A DNA stretch of 52,990 nucleotides from an uncultured Alphaproteobacteria bacterium (GTDB lineage Bacteria; Pseudomonadota; Alphaproteobacteria; Rhodobacterales; Rhodobacteraceae). Location of the stretch: NCBI GenBank assembly GCA_902531755.1, contig CACAFI010000007.1, forward strand, positions 1 to 52,990, read 5' to 3'. Below the pieces are notes generated by a model. The model worked only from the letters and a program-made list of their open reading frames with translations. It did no database searches and was not told the DNA's origin. A program made the position numbers and the translations under genes. Within the stretch, counting starts at the first letter, position 1. Each line of letters starts with the position of its first letter. Positions 1,782 through 10,463 of this stretch are shown one piece after another.

Positions 1782-3365
1782 CTGAGAAATTCTCCAGCTG
1801 TTTTTCTATCTATTCTTTTAATTGGTCCTATATTCAGTTTAATTCTGACAGCTTTCGAAGGTAACCAAGAACTATGGGGTCACCTTGTAAACACGGTATT
1901 GCCTATATACGTAGTGAATACTTTATTGCTATTCATAGGAGTATTAATTCTATCGGCGGGTTTAGGTATTTCAACGGCCTGGATCGTTACTTATTACTCT
2001 TTTTTTGGTAAAAAAGTAATAGAGTGGGCTTTAATACTACCTTTAGCTTGTCCGGCCTATATTATTGCTTATGTCTATACGGATTTCTTAGAGTACGCAG
2101 GACCGGTACAAGGACTTATAAGGCAAACCTTTGGTTTTAATTCACCAGCTAGCTATTATTTTCCCGAAATAAGATCGGTAATGGGAGCTATTTTTGTAAT
2201 GGGTTTTGTACTCTACCCATATGTATATATTTTAGCACGAACAGGTTTTAATAACTCTCCTAGAAGCTTATATGAAACTGCAAGGATTTATGGTCGAAAT
2301 AAATTTCTGGCAGTTGGCTTGCCCTTATGCAGGCCATATATTGTAGCAGGTCTTGCCCTTGTTGCAATGGAAGTACTGTCAGACTTTGGAACAGTTGAAT
2401 ATTTCTCTGTTCAAACACTCACTCTGGGAATGTTTAATGTTTGGATTGGGATGAACAGTATATCTGCAGCATCCCAAATAGCGATAGTGACCTTTGTTTT
2501 TATAATCATCTTGCTTGTCCTGGAAAGAAAGGCGAGATCTAGCCAAAAATATAATGATACCTCTAAGAGACTGAATAATATTTCACCAAAAGAGTTGAGT
2601 TTGAAAAAAGCACTATTTGCAACTGGATTTTGTTTAGTCCCAATTTTAGTTGGTTTTATAGTTCCGATAATTATACTGATAAATAATGTCTTTATGGGTC
2701 TGAAACCTGATAGTTTTTTTGCGATTTTCCCTGTGCTGCTAAATACTATATTTGTAGCTTTTACCGCCACATTAATAATTATATTGCTTGCTTTTTTCTC
2801 AGCTTCTAGCGCTTATTTTTGTAAGAGTCGAGCTTTAGTAATTATCTATAACGTTGCTGCTACAGGATATGCTTTGCCTGGAACTATGCTTGCTATAGGT
2901 GTAGTCATTTTTTTTGGATTTTTGAATAATTTTACAGGAAATTTAGTCTTTTTAGGAGGAACCATTTATGGAGTTATATTTGCATTAACAGTAAGGTTTT
3001 ATGCTATTCCCTATGGTGGAATGATTTCAGGATACTCTAGAATACCCTCAAATTTATTTGATGCGTCAAAAAGTTTGGGTTATTCCACAACGTCGACATC
3101 ATTTAAGATTACACTACCCCTGATAAGGACATCGATAATAGCTGCTGCGATTTTGACCTTTGTAGATATAGTTAAAGAGCTGCCAATGACATTGATACTA
3201 AGACCCTTTAACTTTGAAACTTTAGCAACTTATACATACCAATTTGCACATGACGAATTAATGATCGAGGCATCATTGCCAGCATTCTTCATTATACTTA
3301 CCGGACTTATTCCAATTTTGTTACTTCAAAATCAATTGAATACCTTCTTTCATTCAAAAAATTGA
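1782..3365 (+). CDS. fbpB: Iron(III) ABC transporter permease (FbpB type), start uncertain
   Basis: A polytopic inner-membrane protein with two permease halves, as in FbpB/AfuB, which carry two fused binding-protein-dependent transport domains. The EAA-like loops are seen around SLYETARIYGRN and NLFDASKSLGYS. The only common start codon in frame is TTG 1899, but the frame is open from 1707 and residues encoded upstream of 1899 form a clear first membrane helix (VFLSILLIGPIFSLIL). No ATG, GTG or TTG precedes that helix. CTG 1782, preceded by AAGGG at 1773-1777, or ATT 1725 are the best candidates. An in-frame ATG at 1686 is blocked by TAG at 1704. The 3' end overlaps the convergent gene by 16 bases. 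Confidence 0.82.
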   Translation: MRNSPAVFLSILLIGPIFSLILTAFEGNQELWGHLVNTVLPIYVVNTLLLFIGVLILSAGLGISTAWIVTYYSFFGKKVIEWALILPLACPAYIIAYVYTDFLEYAGPVQGLIRQTFGFNSPASYYFPEIRSVMGAIFVMGFVLYPYVYILARTGFNNSPRSLYETARIYGRNKFLAVGLPLCRPYIVAGLALVAMEVLSDFGTVEYFSVQTLTLGMFNVWIGMNSISAASQIAIVTFVFIIILLVLERKARSSQKYNDTSKRLNNISPKELSLKKALFATGFCLVPILVGFIVPIIILINNVFMGLKPDSFFAIFPVLLNTIFVAFTATLIIILLAFFSASSAYFCKSRALVIIYNVAATGYALPGTMLAIGVVIFFGFLNNFTGNLVFLGGTIYGVIFALTVRFYAIPYGGMISGYSRIPSNLFDASKSLGYSTTSTSFKITLPLIRTSIIAAAILTFVDIVKELPMTLILRPFNFETLATYTYQFAHDELMIEASLPAFFIILTGLIPILLLQNQLNTFFHSKN

Positions 3366-4354
3366 ACGGCGAGATATAGGAGTATCGAAAACATCAAAAT
3401 ATATAATAATATGATATTCACTTTGTTATTAGATCCAATAAACTGTAGCTTTTCTAAAGTTTGTTTATGTTCTCTGAGGGTTTGCTTATCTTTATTTGGT
3501 TTTTGTTTCTTTAAATCTTTGCTTGCATAGTATACATCGACTATAAATGGGTTGCCTTTCGAAATGGAACCCACAGATCCAAAGTAATCAGGCATCTCTG
3601 TATAATTGGAAACGTTCGCTTTTTCATATAAGAGTTTGTAGGCTTGACCATCGGTTATAAAGCCATTTTCAGTATATATCCCCGTAGGTTTTTCCGCATA
3701 TATACCTTTCATATTACCTAGGTTACATCTGACAATAATAGCCTCAAACTCAGTATGATAAATCTTGCTAAGTAGATCTCTGAAGGTATCATCATCCAGA
3801 TATACCTCTAAATAAAATTCTTCCCCAAAATTGTAATCTAGATTGTCGCTTGCTTTGCCACAAGTCAGAGAAAAAAAACCGCTACCCTTCAAATTATCAA
3901 AGTTTAAATCTCTCTGAGTATAACTTCCGAGAACTGTTTTTCCTGTGCCAGATATTTGTTCGCTATCTCTTTTTAAACAATGGATGGCGACGTTTACCTT
4001 ATCCGAATATTCCCTTGAACCAAGTATTGAAAAGGAATCTTTATTTTTTTTGTAGATATTACTTAGAATTATACCCGTGCCAACAATTTGCTCGACTTCA
4101 CTAAATCCAGTAGATTTTTTTTTGCTTATATTATAGATATCACCGTGCTTATATGACTTAGAGTATTCTGGCGATACAATTTTAAGCTCAATAGTACCAT
4201 CTTGAACTGGAAAAAATTTTACAAGCTTTTCTATTTCATCAAAATCATTTCTTTTTTCAACTAAGTACTCCGTTTCTTCTTTTGGCAGATTGAATGAATT
4301 TTGTTGTCGTACAAAAATTACTTCATTTGGGTATGTTGAATTTCTATTTATCAT
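3350..4354 (-). CDS. Unknown protein with C-terminal membrane anchor
   Basis: I do not recognise this 334-residue protein. It is mostly polar, lysine-, aspartate- and tyrosine-rich, with no signal peptide, and ends in one hydrophobic helix (about residues 310-330, IILLYILMFSILLYLAV) with only a few residues after it, so it looks tail-anchored with a cytoplasmic body. A proline/lysine/glutamine-rich stretch lies just before the helix. The last 16 bases overlap the 3' end of the iron permease gene on the other strand. Codon use is AT-rich like its neighbours. It may be a stand-alone gene; the next minus-strand gene upstream is another unknown. Confidence 0.6.
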   Translation of the reverse strand: MINRNSTYPNEVIFVRQQNSFNLPKEETEYLVEKRNDFDEIEKLVKFFPVQDGTIELKIVSPEYSKSYKHGDIYNISKKKSTGFSEVEQIVGTGIILSNIYKKNKDSFSILGSREYSDKVNVAIHCLKRDSEQISGTGKTVLGSYTQRDLNFDNLKGSGFFSLTCGKASDNLDYNFGEEFYLEVYLDDDTFRDLLSKIYHTEFEAIIVRCNLGNMKGIYAEKPTGIYTENGFITDGQAYKLLYEKANVSNYTEMPDYFGSVGSISKGNPFIVDVYYASKDLKKQKPNKDKQTLREHKQTLEKLQFIGSNNKVNIILLYILMFSILLYLAVQFFE

Positions 4355-4422: not shown

Positions 4423-4782
4423 TTATTTGTTACGAGCACACTTATATTCCTTGGGACAAGCACCTTTATTTTCAATTACAATAGTTACCTCAGGTGGGTC
4501 CATCCTAGATCCTGCTTTCACATAAGTACACATTCTCTGAGTTGGGTCATCATCATTCCATTTCCAGTTTTTAAACCTGCATGTAACGGGGGTGGTGTTC
4601 GACAGTGAGGCTCTTCTACGGCATTTAATTTTTTCTCTTCCCATTATTGTTTGTGGCCACTTTAGCCTCATTGTATCCCAAAGTGTACAATGTGGTTCTT
4701 TCTTATTTTCATACATGCGTCCCTCTGCCAGGGAGGTGGTGGGAAATATCAAAAGGATGAATAAAAAAAACAGTTTTTTCAT
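4423..4782 (-). CDS. Small secreted cysteine-rich protein, unknown
   Basis: A 119-residue protein with a clear signal peptide (MKKLFFLFILLIFPTTSLAEG, cleavage near residue 19). The mature part is basic, rich in Trp and Arg, and has six cysteines (in HCTLW, IKCRR, VTCRF, RMCTY, GACPK, YKCAR), enough for three disulfides, so it is probably periplasmic or exported. I know no family for it. It lies about 70 bases upstream of the tail-anchored unknown on the same strand, and the two may be co-transcribed. The ribosome binding site is weak. Confidence 0.6.
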   Translation of the reverse strand: MKKLFFLFILLIFPTTSLAEGRMYENKKEPHCTLWDTMRLKWPQTIMGREKIKCRRRASLSNTTPVTCRFKNWKWNDDDPTQRMCTYVKAGSRMDPPEVTIVIENKGACPKEYKCARNK

Positions 4783-4943
4783 TATTTTTGTGTTTCTCTT
4801 TTAGATATTGGTTGATTATAAAATCGACAGCCGTATCTGTAAGTTTAGAAGTTTTGAATTTTATTTATTTTTAGTGTACCATAAATTCAATAAAGGCTTT
4901 AATTTTTTGGATCAAAAAAGAAAAATTCAAAAAAGGGGGAGAA

Positions 4944-5597
4944 ATGGCTGAAGTTTTTGAGGACTCCTATTCTGCGGAAGCACTAGCAAATATGGAGAAC
5001 TATATAATTGGTTTTGGTAATTTAATAAAAGATGTTGGTTCTAGTGAAGGGTTCAAGAATGTACTTTTCGGTATGAGGGTAATGATAGATGGAAAACCTA
5101 AACGCATAGCTGATTTAAGCAAGATTTATGCTGGTAAAGCACCTAGAACACTCGAACTTCTTGTATTTAGTAGAGAACACATTCAACTTATAGTTTCTGA
5201 GATTAAGACGCATGATCTTAAAAATGTAAAGGCAGACACACAGCAGCAACTAATTACTGTTACCATACCTAAGCCAACGCTAGACGACTTAACGGCTATG
5301 GAGGATCAAATAGCAACTATGAGCCGATCTGCAATAAGCAGTTTGACAAAAATAAGAGGAAATACCTCACAGAGGCTAAAAGCCGCATTAGAAAATGAAT
5401 TCATCGATGGCGCTACAATGCATAAATCGAGAAACAAAGTAGATGCTGTATATGATACGTATGTAAAGCTAGTAAAACTTCATTCTTTAAAGAAAAGAAA
5501 AACTATTTTAGGTAGTTATTTCGAGCCAAAAGATGCAGAAGAAAGAATGCTTTTACCTGAATTGACAAAACTAAAGCCTTTACCCGAGCCAAAGTAA
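4944..5597 (+). CDS. Ribosome recycling factor (RRF)-like protein, divergent paralog
   Basis: A 217-residue protein whose residues about 40-180 line up with RRF from memory. A segment starting VMIDGKPKRIADLSKIYAGK matches the RRF beta region with its conserved 'Y.G...PL.qlA' block. It is followed by PRTLELLVF, the VTIPKPTLDD segment (RRF 'iPPLTEErR') and a helix with KIRGNTSQRLKA at the place of RRF RNVRRDANDK. The RTGRA motif of true RRF is absent; EGFKNVLFG stands there. The C-terminal tail is proline/lysine-rich. GGGGGAG lies just before the ATG. The ThDP enzyme follows after 39 bases. The usual frr neighbours (tsf, pyrH) are not here, so this is likely a second, altered copy and its role is unknown. 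Confidence 0.72.
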   Translation: MAEVFEDSYSAEALANMENYIIGFGNLIKDVGSSEGFKNVLFGMRVMIDGKPKRIADLSKIYAGKAPRTLELLVFSREHIQLIVSEIKTHDLKNVKADTQQQLITVTIPKPTLDDLTAMEDQIATMSRSAISSLTKIRGNTSQRLKAALENEFIDGATMHKSRNKVDAVYDTYVKLVKLHSLKKRKTILGSYFEPKDAEERMLLPELTKLKPLPEPK

Positions 5598-5636: not shown

Positions 5637-7274
5637 ATGTCAAAAACAGGCGGCCAATTAATTGCCGAAAGTCTTGATAGAAATCAGGTTAAAAATGTAT
5701 TTTGTGTACCCGGTGAAAGCTATTTGGGAGCATTAGACGCTCTTTTCGACAAAAAGAAAAGTATAAAAGTTATCAATGCACGCCATGAAGCCGGGGCAGC
5801 TAATATGGCCGAAAGCTACGGTAAACTAACCGGGAAACCAGGGGTTGCCTTGGTCACAAGAGGGCCTGGAGCCTGTCATGCCTCTGTAGGTGTACATATT
5901 GCTCATCAGGACAGTACACCAATGATCTTGATAGTAGGGGATGTCGCAAGAAATGTCAGAGATAGAGAGGCATTTCAAGAAGTAGACTTCAAGAACTTTT
6001 TTGGTCCAATATCAAAGTGGGTAGCAGAAATTAGTGATCCAGATAGGGTTCCGGAGTACATGAATAGGGCTTTCAGTCTGGCAACTTCCGGAAGGCCTGG
6101 ACCAGTAGTGTTAGTTACCCCAGAAGATATGCTTTCTCAAATTTCGAAAGTAAAATCTCCTGTTTTAAGTCGAGTTATTAAAGGTGAAATGCCCTCGAAG
6201 GGATTAAGCGCTATAATTGAAAGTTTAAAAAAATCAAAAAAACCCCTTTTTATAATTGGTGGCTCGGGTTGGACAAATAAGTCATGTTCTAAATTTCATA
6301 ATTTTGTAAATGAAAATAATATTCCAGTAGCAACGTCTTTTCGCAGGCAAGATTTATTTGACCATAAAAACGAGAACTATGCAGGAAGCTTTGGTACATC
6401 AGTATCACCAAAACTTATAGACAGCACCAAAAACAGCGACCTTATTATTGTTTTAGGAGCTAGGCTAGGTGAAATGACAACTCAAGGATATAGCATAATA
6501 AGTCCTCGAGATAACTCGAAAAATATAATTCATATTCATGTAGACTCGAATGAATTGAATAAGGTTTATAACGCTAATGTATGCATAAACGTTGGAGTAA
6601 ATGAGTGCTGCGATAAGCTAGAGGATCTAAATCTGGATAATTCCAAACGATGGCAAGGATGGAGAAATGAACTTAATAAAAACTACTTAGAGGACTCCAA
6701 ACCACAAAATAATAAAAATGTTAATAATTTAAGTAAAATTTTTGAAATAGTTGAAAAAAAATTCCCCCAAGATTCTATCGTGACTCTTGACGCTGGAAAT
6801 AACGCTGCTTGGCCACAAAGATTTTTAAGCTTTGGAGGGAGCCGAAGACAAATTGCTTCTACTTGTGGTTCCATGGGATATGCCATTCCAGCAGCGGTCT
6901 CTTCAGCGCTGTTAAATCCGGAAAAAGCTGTCCTTTGTTGTGTAGGTGATGGAGGTTTTATGATGTCTAGTCAGGAAATCTCAACTGCAGTTCATTATGG
7001 AGCAAAAATAATCATTATTCTTATTAATAACAGCAGTTATGCAACAATAAGAATGCATCAGGAGAGAGATTATCCAGGACGGAAAATAGCTACAGATTTG
7101 AAAAACCCCGACTTTGTTAAGCTATGTAAGGCAATTGGGGCAAATGCCTATAGAGTAAAGGGGGTAAAAGATTTTACTCAAATTTTTGCCAAGGCGCTTA
7201 AGTCAAAAAAAGTAAATGTTATTGAAATACCAATTTCCATTAATCAATTATCCCATAGGTATAATCTTAAGTAG
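5637..7274 (+). CDS. Thiamine diphosphate-dependent enzyme, acetolactate synthase large-subunit-like
   Basis: A 545-residue enzyme with the three-domain layout of the family: N-terminal pyrimidine-binding domain with catalytic Glu51 (HEAGAANMAE), a central Rossmann-like domain, and a C-terminal diphosphate-binding domain with GDG at 437-439 and the following NN (ILINNSSY). It is related to acetolactate synthase, glyoxylate carboligase and benzoylformate decarboxylase-like enzymes. No small regulatory subunit (ilvH) follows, so a catabolic role is more likely than branched-chain amino acid synthesis. It is convergent with the PfkB kinase, and their ends overlap by 8 bases. The ribosome binding site is weak. 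Confidence 0.85.
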   Translation: MSKTGGQLIAESLDRNQVKNVFCVPGESYLGALDALFDKKKSIKVINARHEAGAANMAESYGKLTGKPGVALVTRGPGACHASVGVHIAHQDSTPMILIVGDVARNVRDREAFQEVDFKNFFGPISKWVAEISDPDRVPEYMNRAFSLATSGRPGPVVLVTPEDMLSQISKVKSPVLSRVIKGEMPSKGLSAIIESLKKSKKPLFIIGGSGWTNKSCSKFHNFVNENNIPVATSFRRQDLFDHKNENYAGSFGTSVSPKLIDSTKNSDLIIVLGARLGEMTTQGYSIISPRDNSKNIIHIHVDSNELNKVYNANVCINVGVNECCDKLEDLNLDNSKRWQGWRNELNKNYLEDSKPQNNKNVNNLSKIFEIVEKKFPQDSIVTLDAGNNAAWPQRFLSFGGSRRQIASTCGSMGYAIPAAVSSALLNPEKAVLCCVGDGGFMMSSQEISTAVHYGAKIIIILINNSSYATIRMHQERDYPGRKIATDLKNPDFVKLCKAIGANAYRVKGVKDFTQIFAKALKSKKVNVIEIPISINQLSHRYNLK

Positions 7275-8199
7275 CTTTCAGAGCTTTATTTAGTTCAACT
7301 CTAGTCGGACTTGACTGAGCTGTTCCTTTTTTCAAAACACTGAGACCTGCTGCAGCACAAGAAAATTCTACCGATTGTCTCAAATCTTTTCCAAAAGACA
7401 ATGCGCTTGCCAAAGCACCATTGAAACAATCGCCAGCACCTGTCGTATCAACTACTTTTCCAAAATTATTGCCAGGGCAAAACGAAATTTTCTCTCCATC
7501 AAAAAATGCAGCACCTTTTTTCCCAAGTGTAATAATCACTTTTTCAACTCCCAGGTCTCGAATTTTATTTACAGCCTTTTCAACGTCTCTTTTTCCTTTT
7601 AATGAGATATCTGTTATTTGCTCAGCTTCTGTTTCATTGGGAGTAATAATTTCACAAAACTGGTAAGCTTTCTTACTAATTTTTCCGAATGGGGCTGGGT
7701 TAAAAATTGTAATCATACCCAATTCTCTGGCTTCTTTTAAAACTGCAAATGTAGTATCAGATGACTGTTCAAATTGAGTTAAAAAAATGTCTCCTTTTTT
7801 CATTTTTGATTTTTGTGAATAGAAGTCATCTATACAAAGATGGGCTGATGCTCCAGGATCAACAATTACACTATTTTCACCAGTTTTATCATCAATAAAT
7901 ATTCCTGCCATACCGGTAGGTAAATTGTTGTCAATTTTTGTACTTGTAATTAGCTTTTCTTTTCTCCAAATATCATTTGCATAGTTATTAAAATTATCAT
8001 CTCCTAATCGAGTTATTAATGTGGTGGTCGCTCCTAGTTTTCTAGCTGATATTGCTTGATTTGAGGCTTTGCCGCCAGGGCCTATGTTCGAACTTTTTGC
8101 AATAATGGTTTCTCCAGGTTTTACTTTCTTATCAACATAGAAAGATAAATCCACCGCGAAAATTCCAAAAACAAAAATATGTTTATTTTTTTGTGTCAT
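7267..8199 (-). CDS. PfkB-family sugar kinase (ribokinase-like)
   Basis: A 310-residue cytoplasmic kinase. Near the N-terminus is the PfkB signature 1 (GPGGKASNQAISARKLG), and near residue 250 is signature 2 with the anion hole and catalytic Asp (DTTGAGDCFNGALA). Its length and the GGK motif fit ribokinase, but the sugar cannot be told. The start overlaps the CoA-transferase end by 17 bases, which indicates translational coupling, so it is the last gene of the seven-gene minus-strand run. A sugar kinase is an odd member for a methylamine/acyl-CoA operon. Confidence 0.88.
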   Translation of the reverse strand: MTQKNKHIFVFGIFAVDLSFYVDKKVKPGETIIAKSSNIGPGGKASNQAISARKLGATTTLITRLGDDNFNNYANDIWRKEKLITSTKIDNNLPTGMAGIFIDDKTGENSVIVDPGASAHLCIDDFYSQKSKMKKGDIFLTQFEQSSDTTFAVLKEARELGMITIFNPAPFGKISKKAYQFCEIITPNETEAEQITDISLKGKRDVEKAVNKIRDLGVEKVIITLGKKGAAFFDGEKISFCPGNNFGKVVDTTGAGDCFNGALASALSFGKDLRQSVEFSCAAAGLSVLKKGTAQSSPTRVELNKALKAT

Positions 8200-9313
8200 T
8201 GAATTCTTTTCTCAATTGTTCATTTTGTTGATTAAATTTAGGAGCTTTTTTTTCTGAATTCTCCCAAACAAGGGGCGGAGAGGGAATAGTTAAACTGTCA
8301 TCTAACGAATTTCTTACGGTTATTTTTTTCAAAGCCAAATGCCTTTCTAAATCTTTGACGGAATTTAATCTTCCATACGCAATTGACGCTTCATCAAGCC
8401 TATTTTTAAGAGTTTCATCAGTAAGTGATAACAATGTCGTCTGAATTTTTTTATCTAATAAATCTCTGTTCTTTACTCTTAGTGTATTGCTAGAAAACTT
8501 ATTTTCTTTTAACAGGGTGGGTGTTTTAAGAACCTCTACACAAAATCTTTTCCACTCCAATTCGTTCTGAATCGAAATGATGAAGCTAGTATTTTCCGAG
8601 CACAGGAAAGCGCCATAAGGTGCGATAGAAGGATGCTTTAGGCCAACCCTTTTGGGAGCAACCCCTCCATATTTGCTATGAATATATGGAACGGTCATCC
8701 AGTCAGCAGCAACATCAAAAAGTGAAATCTTAACATCCTTAACTTTATTAAAACGTTCTCTCAATAATAAAGATTCTACAATGCCTGCATGTGCTGCCAT
8801 TCCTGCGCCAATATCGCAAATTGAGACTCCTATCCTACCAAGTCCCTCTGGTGATCCAGAAACATCTATTAGGCCACTTTCCGCTTGAATTAGTAAATCA
8901 TAGGATTTTTTTTTCATCATTTCAGGAGCCTCTCCATAACCAGATATATCGCAACAGATAAGTCTTGGGTTAATAGATTTTAAGGTTGAGCTATCTATGC
9001 TCAATTTAGTTACTGTTGTGGGAGAGAAATTCTGAATAAAAATATCCGCTTTAGTAACCATATTTATGAAAATTCGTCTGTCCTCCTTTGCCTTTAGGTC
9101 AAGCGCAATACTTTCTTTACCTTGATTGAGCCATATGAAATATGAGCTTTCTCCTTCAGCGGCTGTGTCATAACCCCGAGCAAAATCTCCACCATCCTTT
9201 CTCTCAATCTTAATCACCCGGGCGCCTGCTAACTTAAGTCTATTAGAGCAAAAAGGTCCAGCCACAGCTTGTTCCATAGATACCACTAATATTCCATCAA
9301 GTGGTAAGCTCAT
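8183..9313 (-). CDS. Class III (CaiB/BaiF-type) CoA-transferase
   Basis: A 376-residue protein of the formyl-CoA transferase/CaiB family, which moves CoA between carboxylic acids. The N-terminal LDGILVVSMEQAVAGPFCSNRLKLAGARVIKIE block, the LNQGKESIALDLK segment and a conserved Asp in SICDIGAGMAAH (the residue that forms the aspartyl-CoA intermediate in the family) are present. It starts one base after the acyl-CoA dehydrogenase stop and overlaps the kinase. This pairing suggests the transferase activates an acid that the dehydrogenase then oxidises; the acid is not known. Confidence 0.9.
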   Translation of the reverse strand: MSLPLDGILVVSMEQAVAGPFCSNRLKLAGARVIKIERKDGGDFARGYDTAAEGESSYFIWLNQGKESIALDLKAKEDRRIFINMVTKADIFIQNFSPTTVTKLSIDSSTLKSINPRLICCDISGYGEAPEMMKKKSYDLLIQAESGLIDVSGSPEGLGRIGVSICDIGAGMAAHAGIVESLLLRERFNKVKDVKISLFDVAADWMTVPYIHSKYGGVAPKRVGLKHPSIAPYGAFLCSENTSFIISIQNELEWKRFCVEVLKTPTLLKENKFSSNTLRVKNRDLLDKKIQTTLLSLTDETLKNRLDEASIAYGRLNSVKDLERHLALKKITVRNSLDDSLTIPSPPLVWENSEKKAPKFNQQNEQLRKEFNDTKK

Positions 9314-9314
9314 T

Positions 9315-10463
9315 TTAAAAGCTTCTTGGAAGATTTAAAACATGTTCAGCAATATAGCTAAGTATTAAGTTTCTTGAAACGGGAGCTGTTTGATAAAGAC
9401 GCGTTTCTCTGAACTTTCTTTCAATGTCGTATTCTTTACTGAAGCCAAAGCCACCAAATGTCTCCATAGCCGTAGTGCCTGCTTTCCAACTAGCATCAGC
9501 TGCTAACATTTTTGCCATATTAGCCTCTGCACCACATTTTTTACCCTCGTCGAAAAGCGTTGCAGCTTTATCGACCATAAGCGATGCGGCTTCGATTTGT
9601 GAATAGCACTCCGCAATTGGAAATTGAATTCCTTGGTTCATGCCGATTTCTCTGTTAAAAGTTTTTCTGGTGTTAGCATAGTTAACAGACTTTTCTATAA
9701 AATATTTACCATCTCCGATACACTCTGATGCTATAAGGATTCTTTCGGCATTCATACCATCCATAATTGCTCGGAAGCCCTTGTCTTCTTCACCTATTAT
9801 GCTTTCATCTGGAATGAAAACATCATCAAAAAACAATTCGCAGGAGTGATGGTTAATCATAGAGTCAATCTTTGCGATTTTAAGGCCACTTTCCTTAGCT
9901 TGTTCAATATTAATAAGGAAAACGGAAAATCCGTCAGTTTTTTTGGGGAGAGCTCCCTGGGGTTTAGTTCGTGCAAGAAGGATCATTAAGTCAGATTGTT
10001 CCACTCGACTAATCCAGACTTTTTGCCCATTTATAATCCAGCCATTATTAGTTTTTTTTGCCATGGTTTTGATACTGGTTGTGTCCGTTCCTGAGTTTGG
10101 CTCGGTTACGGCAAAGCTTTGAAGCCTTAGCTCACCAGAAGATATTTTTGGAAGAAATTCTTTTTTTTGTTTATCCGACCCATGTCTTAAAAGGGTGCCC
10201 ATAACGTACATCTGAGCATGACACGCACCAGCATGCGCACCTTGAAGACTAATTTCCTCTAAAACAATACAGGCTTCTTTTAATCCCAGTCCAGCGCCAC
10301 CATATTCTTGAGGAATAAGTATATTTAAGAAACCGCTTGTCGTCATTTCCTTAACAAAGTCTGTAGGGTATTCTTTTTTCTTATCTAAATCACGCCAATA
10401 TTCTTCTCCATATTTCTGGCAAATTGTGGCTACAGACTCCCGGATTTGTTTTGTATCAATCAA
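9315..10463 (-). CDS. Acyl-CoA dehydrogenase family flavoprotein
   Basis: A 382-residue FAD enzyme with the family's middle-domain motif (FAVTEPNSGTDTTSIKT, then NGQKVWIS) and C-terminal motif (ETFGGFGFSKEYDIERKFRETRLYQ). Start is TTG 10463 with GGGAG six bases upstream. The usual C-terminal catalytic glutamate in the EGTSQI-like segment is replaced: after RLYQ comes TAPVSRNLI. I recall this ending from a common subgroup (…YIAEHVLGLPRSF), so the base may lie elsewhere or the reaction may differ. It lies between the lipoprotein gene and the CoA-transferase in the minus-strand run. Confidence 0.88.
   Translation of the reverse strand: MIDTKQIRESVATICQKYGEEYWRDLDKKKEYPTDFVKEMTTSGFLNILIPQEYGGAGLGLKEACIVLEEISLQGAHAGACHAQMYVMGTLLRHGSDKQKKEFLPKISSGELRLQSFAVTEPNSGTDTTSIKTMAKKTNNGWIINGQKVWISRVEQSDLMILLARTKPQGALPKKTDGFSVFLINIEQAKESGLKIAKIDSMINHHSCELFFDDVFIPDESIIGEEDKGFRAIMDGMNAERILIASECIGDGKYFIEKSVNYANTRKTFNREIGMNQGIQFPIAECYSQIEAASLMVDKAATLFDEGKKCGAEANMAKMLAADASWKAGTTAMETFGGFGFSKEYDIERKFRETRLYQTAPVSRNLILSYIAEHVLNLPRSF

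Follow-up and report, generated by a model that had tools for sequence, protein, structure and literature searches.

The window (the whole stretch of DNA analysed, 52,990 nucleotides) contains a gene for a divergent paralogue of the ribosome recycling factor (RRF), given the working name RRFL here. RRF is a near-universal and usually single-copy translation factor, often called a tRNA mimic in shape, and its gene, frr, is usually found as a single copy beside tsf-pyrH. The RRFL gene and its surroundings comprise the following features:

3350-4354, reverse strand: ORF of 334 amino acids with a possible C-terminal membrane anchor, judged by eye
4423-4782, reverse strand: small divergent upstream ORF of 119 amino acids, with a start resembling a signal peptide by eye
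4854-4882, forward strand: possible housekeeping promoter, TTGAAT-N17-TACCAT
4934-4941, forward strand: strong putative Shine-Dalgarno-like site, AGGGGGAG, upstream of RRFL
4944-5597, forward strand: RRFL gene, divergent RRF paralogue of 217 amino acids, ATG start
5637-7274, forward strand: TPP enzyme, downstream and co-directional, 39 bp from RRFL
8183-10463, reverse strand: CoA-transferase-like and acyl-CoA-dehydrogenase-like genes

The G-run at the putative Shine-Dalgarno-like site is kept across 11 aligned sequences of the genus, and the candidate promoter stretch is partly conserved across the genus. No sigma-54-like or sigma-28-like promoter with two or fewer mismatches, which might be shared with flagellar genes, lies just upstream of the window RRFL. 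The TPP enzyme and the 119-residue ORF accompany RRFL in all 18 context loci of the genus and the 334-residue ORF in 17 of the 18; the smaller ORF matches no Pfam family and the larger none over the cut-off. A flagellar gene cluster was not found within 7 kb of RRFL in any of these 18 loci.

Sequence searches confirm that the window protein belongs to the RRF family. The original prediction of an RRF-like protein corresponds exactly to the ORF at 4944-5597, and residues 40-189 of its product match the Pfam RRF family (PF01765) with E = 3.7e-13 and 50.1 bits, above the cut-off of 29.7. The phmmer alignment of the window protein with E. coli RRF (1ek8) spans residues 13-179 (E = 0.013), a 13-row RRFL family profile detects a solved RRF with E = 2.9e-15, and hhalign relates the RRFL and canonical RRF alignments over 175 columns with 97.5% probability. 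Chance similarity to RRF is ruled out by the Pfam, profile and profile-profile scores. In contrast, the score of 32.6 bits against the NCBIfam frr equivalog (TIGR00496) is far under its cut-off of 149.1. Identity of the window protein to five canonical RRF rows is 13-19%, and several other RRFL proteins, e.g., those of L081, L083 and L084, score below the PF01765 cut-off. The window protein is basic, with a pI of 9.1, and the flagellar copies of family f9 are acidic, with a median pI of 4.9 over 11 rows.

Other family assignments were considered. One genus member scored 13.3 bits against the NCBIfam model of CheT, a chemotaxis protein, with a cut-off of 200, and this was taken as chance. A role in anti-phage defence was set aside, as PADLOC gave no match for either the window protein or an RRFL relative that is fused to a BLUF domain; the Pfam scan of the window protein itself shows no BLUF match.

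RRFL differs from canonical RRF in its conserved residues; it also has additional conserved blocks at both termini and gene neighbours unlike those of frr. Canonical RRF arginines contact 50S rRNA. Counted in E. coli numbering over 16 canonical rows, R28, R31, R109, R110, R129 and R132 are arginine in all 16, and R133 is arginine in 14 and lysine in two. The residues lost, kept and gained by the window protein, as placed by alignment, are:

4962-4973, forward strand: RRFL-specific N-terminal motif D-S-Y9-S10
5037-5051, forward strand: GSSEG (G32-S-S-E-G36) in place of the lost RTGRA
5100-5114, forward strand: RRFL-specific K/R53-R54-x-x-D57, in the domain II region
5355-5357, forward strand: R138, equivalent of E. 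coli R132
5373-5405, forward strand: RRFL-specific block R144-x3-A148-x2-N151-E152-F153-I154
5508-5513, forward strand: RRFL-specific C-terminal L189-G190, followed by a tail

The absence of RTGRA and of most of the conserved arginines, both anticipated by the original prediction, is borne out. The window residues at R28, R31, R109, R110, R129 and R133 are G, E, D, L, T and G, respectively, as read from the multi-row alignment; in the pairwise alignment to 1ek8, R109 and R110 fall within an unaligned stretch. Among 59 RRFL rows, the R28 position is R or K in 17, the R31 position D or E in 44, the R109 position Q or D in 45, the R110 position L in 41, the R129 position T, M, S, A or G in 52, and the R133 position S, A, G, T or M in 50. 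RRFL has lost RTGRA and most of the arginine set, in which only the R132 position is mainly basic (56 of the 59 rows; K in 49 and R in seven). The K178 position is K or R in 58/59 rows and the K140 position in 53/59.

A second set of residues is conserved within RRFL itself. Position 9 is Y in 57/59 rows and F in the other two, and S10 is kept in 53; position 53 is R in 56 rows and K in three, including the window protein, and D57 is kept in 54. In the block that begins at position 144, this position is R or Q and position 148 A or G in every row, position 152 is E in 54 rows and D in five, and I154 is kept in 57. G190 is present in 52 rows, and the C-terminal tail that follows is absent from the canonical rows aligned. 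With the canonical arginines mostly gone and a conserved set of its own in place, RRFL is constrained around different residues.

An AlphaFold2 model of RRFL built from 14 rows is of low confidence (mean pLDDT 48.7, pTM 0.30) and too weak for spatial placement of residues. By eye, its order of helices and strands is consistent with RRF, and the first 26 matches listed by Foldseek against the PDB are all RRFs, the best with E = 1.4e-4. On the structural part of the original prediction, the fold matches are those of RRFs, obtained with a poor model. Among the PDB titles of the matches are an E. coli RRF Arg132Gly mutant and M. tuberculosis RRF R31A and R109A mutants. Chloroplast and mitochondrial RRFs also appear among them (e.g., 6eri_Az and 6zs9_A5). 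Organelle RRFs recycle organelle ribosomes; unlike them, RRFL is a second bacterial copy beside a normal frr. The mitochondrial RRF is treated in PMC9067457.

The relation of RRFL to the normal recycling factor was examined in 22 genomes of the genus, the window's own included, in which canonical frr products score 184-197 bits and the divergent RRFL 40-50 bits. Canonical frr was found in 14/22, RRFL in 17/22, both in 10/22 and neither in 1/22. In three frr loci read, frr follows ORFs recognized by eye as rpsB, tsf and pyrH and its product keeps RTGRAS; in one of the three, the assignment of tsf and pyrH is confirmed by scores above the cut-offs. The window RRFL gene lies away from tsf-pyrH, as originally stated. 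Because a normal frr follows tsf-pyrH in genomes of the same genus, RRFL is a paralogue of it. The expectation of a normal frr in the same genome fared less evenly: the search of the window's own assembly, 64.5% complete, turned up no second, normal RRF, and such a gene is attested at the level of the genus. The outcome is thus a clear profile match, a weak model that resembles RRFs and a normal frr within the genus, rather than the lack of RRF similarity in profile and fold, or of any other frr, that had been named beforehand as contrary evidence.

Taxon sampling for RRFL was carried out within the phylum. Fifteen genomes from other genera of the window's family contain no RRFL, and among 196 genomes of its order the only match is in the window's own genome. 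A draw of 385 genomes from the class gave 11 matches with the first profile, of which nine are RRFL; the other two, in G166 and G228, were removed on reading as ordinary frr with RTGRAS. Searches at the order level used a broader profile (A3), for which scores up to 73 bits denote canonical RRF and scores of 78 bits or more RRFL. With this profile RRFL was found in 70/121 genomes of the order of G249 (presumably SAR116-type, and so labelled here), in 27/32 of that of G044, where two of the genes are fragments, and in 8/28 of that of G186. In a draw of 398 genomes from the phylum, only the window's own genome scored above the canonical range. An origin in phages or plasmids was rejected: tblastn found no match to RRFL in 50,697 phage or 72,556 plasmid records, and none of 78 viral contig stretches that fit a pattern encodes a relative. 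Searches of open-licence papers for frr paralogues, RRF-like proteins and RRF with BLUF gave no description of the RRFL family among the entries listed, which in one case were 10 of 124.

In a quick maximum-likelihood tree of the 16 canonical and 59 RRFL rows, the two sets are split with a support of 100. The branches on either side of the root are long (1.65 changes per column each), and a program warning flags the meeting of long branches. The seven RRFL rows of the genus form one clade (support 99), for which this quick method, with its flagged long branches, gave no firm neighbour or source. Median dN/dS within the genus is 0.035 for RRFL (67 usable pairs, 15 sequences), 0.053 for frr (56 usable pairs, 13 sequences) and 0.111 for the neighbouring TPP enzyme gene (17 usable pairs, seven sequences). 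With different genome sets and nearly saturated synonymous sites, these values show strong constraint and no fine ranking. RRFL is a separate, strongly constrained subfamily, found in the samples only in the window's genus and three other alphaproteobacterial orders.

Gene neighbourhoods were compared over 70 context loci. RRFL stands beside motA and motB in 13/20 loci of family f9, 6/7 of f176 and 2/16 of f109, and in none of the four f174, five f19 and 18 window-genus loci. A wider count, which used loci with flanks of up to 1.5 kb, places motB within 1.5 kb of RRFL in 22/22 f176 loci and 18/25 f9 loci. One further f9 locus has PDZ266 only. Neither motB nor PDZ266 is found at the remaining six f9 loci, of which two hold the second copies in G044 and G277, or at the eight f109 and eight f19 loci of this count. 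In L045, the stator genes were identified by Pfam (MotA_ExbB, 92.6 bits; MotB_plug, 65.5 bits). The motAB-RRFL group is flanked by flhB, fliR, fliQ, fliP, fliN and fliM, as named by eye and synteny; at one flagellar locus of the window's genus, FliR scores over its cut-off, and FlhB reaches 333 bits against a cut-off of 349.25.

Spacing at these junctions is short. The gap from motB to RRFL measures 15-48 bp in six f176 loci and, for two loci of f109, 20 or 167 bp; in 13 f9 loci RRFL comes 4-57 bp after PDZ266. In 15/22 f176 loci (L197-L200 and 11 more), PDZ266 is absent from the DNA examined and der is present. In each of the four that were read gene by gene, RRFL is immediately followed by der, which lies on the other strand in convergent orientation. 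Der of L199 scores 519 bits against a cut-off of 306.7 and is a GTPase of ribosome biogenesis and assembly. Thus, motB and RRFL occur together in two arrangements, one with PDZ266 in the flagellar cluster and one with der. In L082, rpmF, like der a translation-linked gene, lies three genes from RRFL.

The genome of G249, a single contig of 2,753,527 bases, carries two RRFL copies, one of which is fused to BLUF (85.4 bits, cut-off 25). Among 85 distinct RRFL ORFs, only this fusion exceeds 284 amino acids. A sigma-70-family factor and a ParA-like ATPase are encoded in its region, and a flagellar rod gene lies 3.1 kb away. The fusion resembles BLUF photoreceptors with output domains, except that the partner of BLUF here is RRF-like; a full-text search of an open-licence library found no paper pairing 'ribosome recycling factor' with 'BLUF'.

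The fusion locus of G249 (L080:10519-14594) and the RRFL locus of the window's genus have CoA-transferase-like and acyl-CoA-dehydrogenase-like genes in common (46% and 57% identity, respectively), those of the window being at 8183-10463. This suggests that the window copy and the light-sensor fusion perhaps lie in related, partly metabolic surroundings. The pair occurs in 1/16 f109 loci. Near three f19 copies of RRFL there is likewise an acyl-CoA dehydrogenase, of lower identity (27-28%); acyl-CoA dehydrogenases are common.

ORFs with cyclic-nucleotide-binding domains were also observed near non-flagellar RRFL copies in three families (L084:2567-3922, L205:6853-7275 and L209:5528-5860).

A further member of the flagellar cluster is TM241, an uncharacterised membrane-protein-like ORF seen at L045:9885-10610, L196:5829-6542, L239:11965-12714 and in relatives. 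Its N-terminus is near-invariant (ESIKxALDAADAATDVTSEY in most of seven rows), and the one protein scanned has no Pfam family over cut-off. TM241 was used as the marker of the cluster type, and matches of 24 bits or less were dropped (G105, G155, G166, G284, G324, G634 and G026). In the draw of 385 genomes from the class, RRFL is present in nine, TM241 in nine and both in eight (hypergeometric 7e-15, kinship ignored). The mismatches are the window's incomplete genome and G140, which has TM241 but neither an A1 profile match nor an RRFL ORF in 17 kb around TM241.

Within the genus, FliR is present in 15/22 genomes and TM241 in 14/22 (one as a fragment), and the flagellar cluster has the same gene order as in f9 and the SAR116-type order. 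Among 35 genomes from other genera of the family TM241 is found in none, one match of 22.7 bits having been set aside, which suggests a horizontal swap of the genus's flagellar cluster (L238-L243). RRFL was likewise found in none of these 35 genomes. The genus therefore stands out in its family by both flagellar type and RRFL, which fits a joint gain, though its RRFL gene is not part of the cluster. RRFL occurs with no FliR or TM241 match in two genus genomes that are fairly complete (G001, 90%; G019, 84%).

At the motB junction of the genus, where relatives keep RRFL, two of the five junctions read contain an ORF of 375-382 amino acids (L238:4961-6109 and L241:13663-14790); the one scanned has a methyltransferase match below the cut-off. 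No RRFL remnant was detected at this junction, as no ORF there fits the profile and the one tblastn match, of 23 residues with E = 0.46, is elsewhere.

The association is looser in the SAR116-type order. Of its 43 genomes that are at least 90% complete, 21 have both RRFL and TM241, four RRFL only, eight TM241 only and ten neither, a moderate association (Fisher p = 0.009, kinship ignored). One of the four RRFL-only genomes, G622, has motB beside RRFL; G631, G654 and G692 do not. TM241 without RRFL is seen in the f175 genomes G611, G617 and G620 and in the single-contig G610.

Arginine loss, adjacency to flagellar motor genes and the BLUF fusion together suggest that RRFL may act in motility rather than recycling. 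The preferred reading, held with a confidence just short of even, is that RRFL, a recycling-factor paralogue with the RRF fold retained, has left ribosome recycling and been recruited into motility control. It draws on family membership, coexistence with frr, loss of the arginines, purifying selection, motB adjacency in three families and one BLUF fusion. An old duplicate of frr would have kept the fold, given up ribosome recycling and taken on an accessory or regulatory role in one type of alphaproteobacterial flagellum. The residues conserved within RRFL (the N-terminal Y/S, RRxxD in domain II, RxxxAxxNEFI and LG) would then form a binding surface for the stator or for a component of the export/motor cluster, and binding would tune motor activity in response to a signal. 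In one SAR116-type genome that signal may be blue light, sensed by the fused BLUF domain. The window copy, although outside the cluster, would keep this role.

The original prediction had offered two functions, and the one in which the RRF fold serves something other than recycling is now the better supported, given that frr coexists in the genus, most of the conserved arginines are gone and relatives are linked to motAB and BLUF; the other, a stress or hibernation factor, is without direct support. If RRFL does act outside translation, the RRF fold can be recruited to a non-translation job. The BLUF fusion offers a light-controlled handle. A stronger form of the claim, tentative and leaning towards doubtful, is that RRFL is the first protein of the RRF fold to work away from the ribosome, namely a signal-responsive part of the flagellar stator in marine Alphaproteobacteria that is gated by blue light through BLUF in at least one lineage. 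Such a protein would be comparable with the flagellar stator accessory proteins YcgR, FlgX and MotC/MotE in a possible motor-control role and in the location of its gene with motAB in some families. It differs from them in being RRF-like, and Pfam gave no PilZ domain for the RRFL proteins scanned. The der, rpmF, CoA-linked and cyclic-nucleotide neighbours, together with the copies away from motAB, make a purely flagellar function everywhere unlikely, and the common motB junction may be inherited synteny.

The main alternative is that RRFL is still ribosomal, a signal-controlled recycling, rescue or hibernation factor that would bind the RRF site differently and perhaps control the translation of flagellar or other membrane proteins. 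The homology to RRF extends across the whole core and RRFs are the top fold matches of the weak model; the window protein is basic, and the R132, K178 and K140 positions are basic in nearly all RRFL rows. A ribosome-bound role may also be indicated by the position of RRFL between motB and der in the 15 f176 loci and by rpmF in L082, and G631, G654 and G692 have RRFL without the flagellar marker. If this reading holds, some marine bacteria have a separate ribosome factor encoded with their motility genes. However, six of the seven arginine positions are mostly lost, the charge at R31 is mostly reversed to D/E, and a normal frr coexists. In addition, der is on the opposite strand and was seen in one family only, the matches of the 13 RRFL members scanned include no hibernation or rescue family over cut-off, and the links to motAB and BLUF are left without explanation. 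A ribosomal function is regarded as somewhat unlikely, though it is the strongest of the rivals.

RRFL could instead be a general signal-output or adaptor module for light and cyclic nucleotides, with flagella as one client and the window copy serving, e.g., the CoA-linked metabolic genes. This would accommodate the non-flagellar surroundings of RRFL in f109, f174, f19 and the genus of the window, the CoA-transferase-like and acyl-CoA-dehydrogenase-like genes common to the genus and G249 fusion loci, the distant acyl-CoA dehydrogenase near the f19 copies, the cyclic-nucleotide-binding ORFs near some copies, the constant TPP neighbour in the genus and the diverged second copy of f9 away from motB. 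The metabolic pair is, however, seen in 1/16 f109 loci and acyl-CoA dehydrogenases are common, and the flagellar cluster of the genus is of the same type as in f9 and the SAR116-type order. This reading is considered improbable in comparison with recruitment into motility control. Decay of RRFL as a functionless frr duplicate, to which the low identity to canonical RRF might point, is very improbable; it was rejected on a dN/dS below that of the genus frr and is further opposed by the presence of RRFL in 17/22 genus genomes and three other orders.

The second RRFL copy of f9 (L046, L087 and L089) is faster-evolving and lies away from motB, between cupredoxin-like and DnaJ-domain ORFs; these were assigned by Pfam in L046, where the cupredoxin-like match is below the cut-off. 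In the tree, seven such second copies form a clade inside the f9 rows located at motB.
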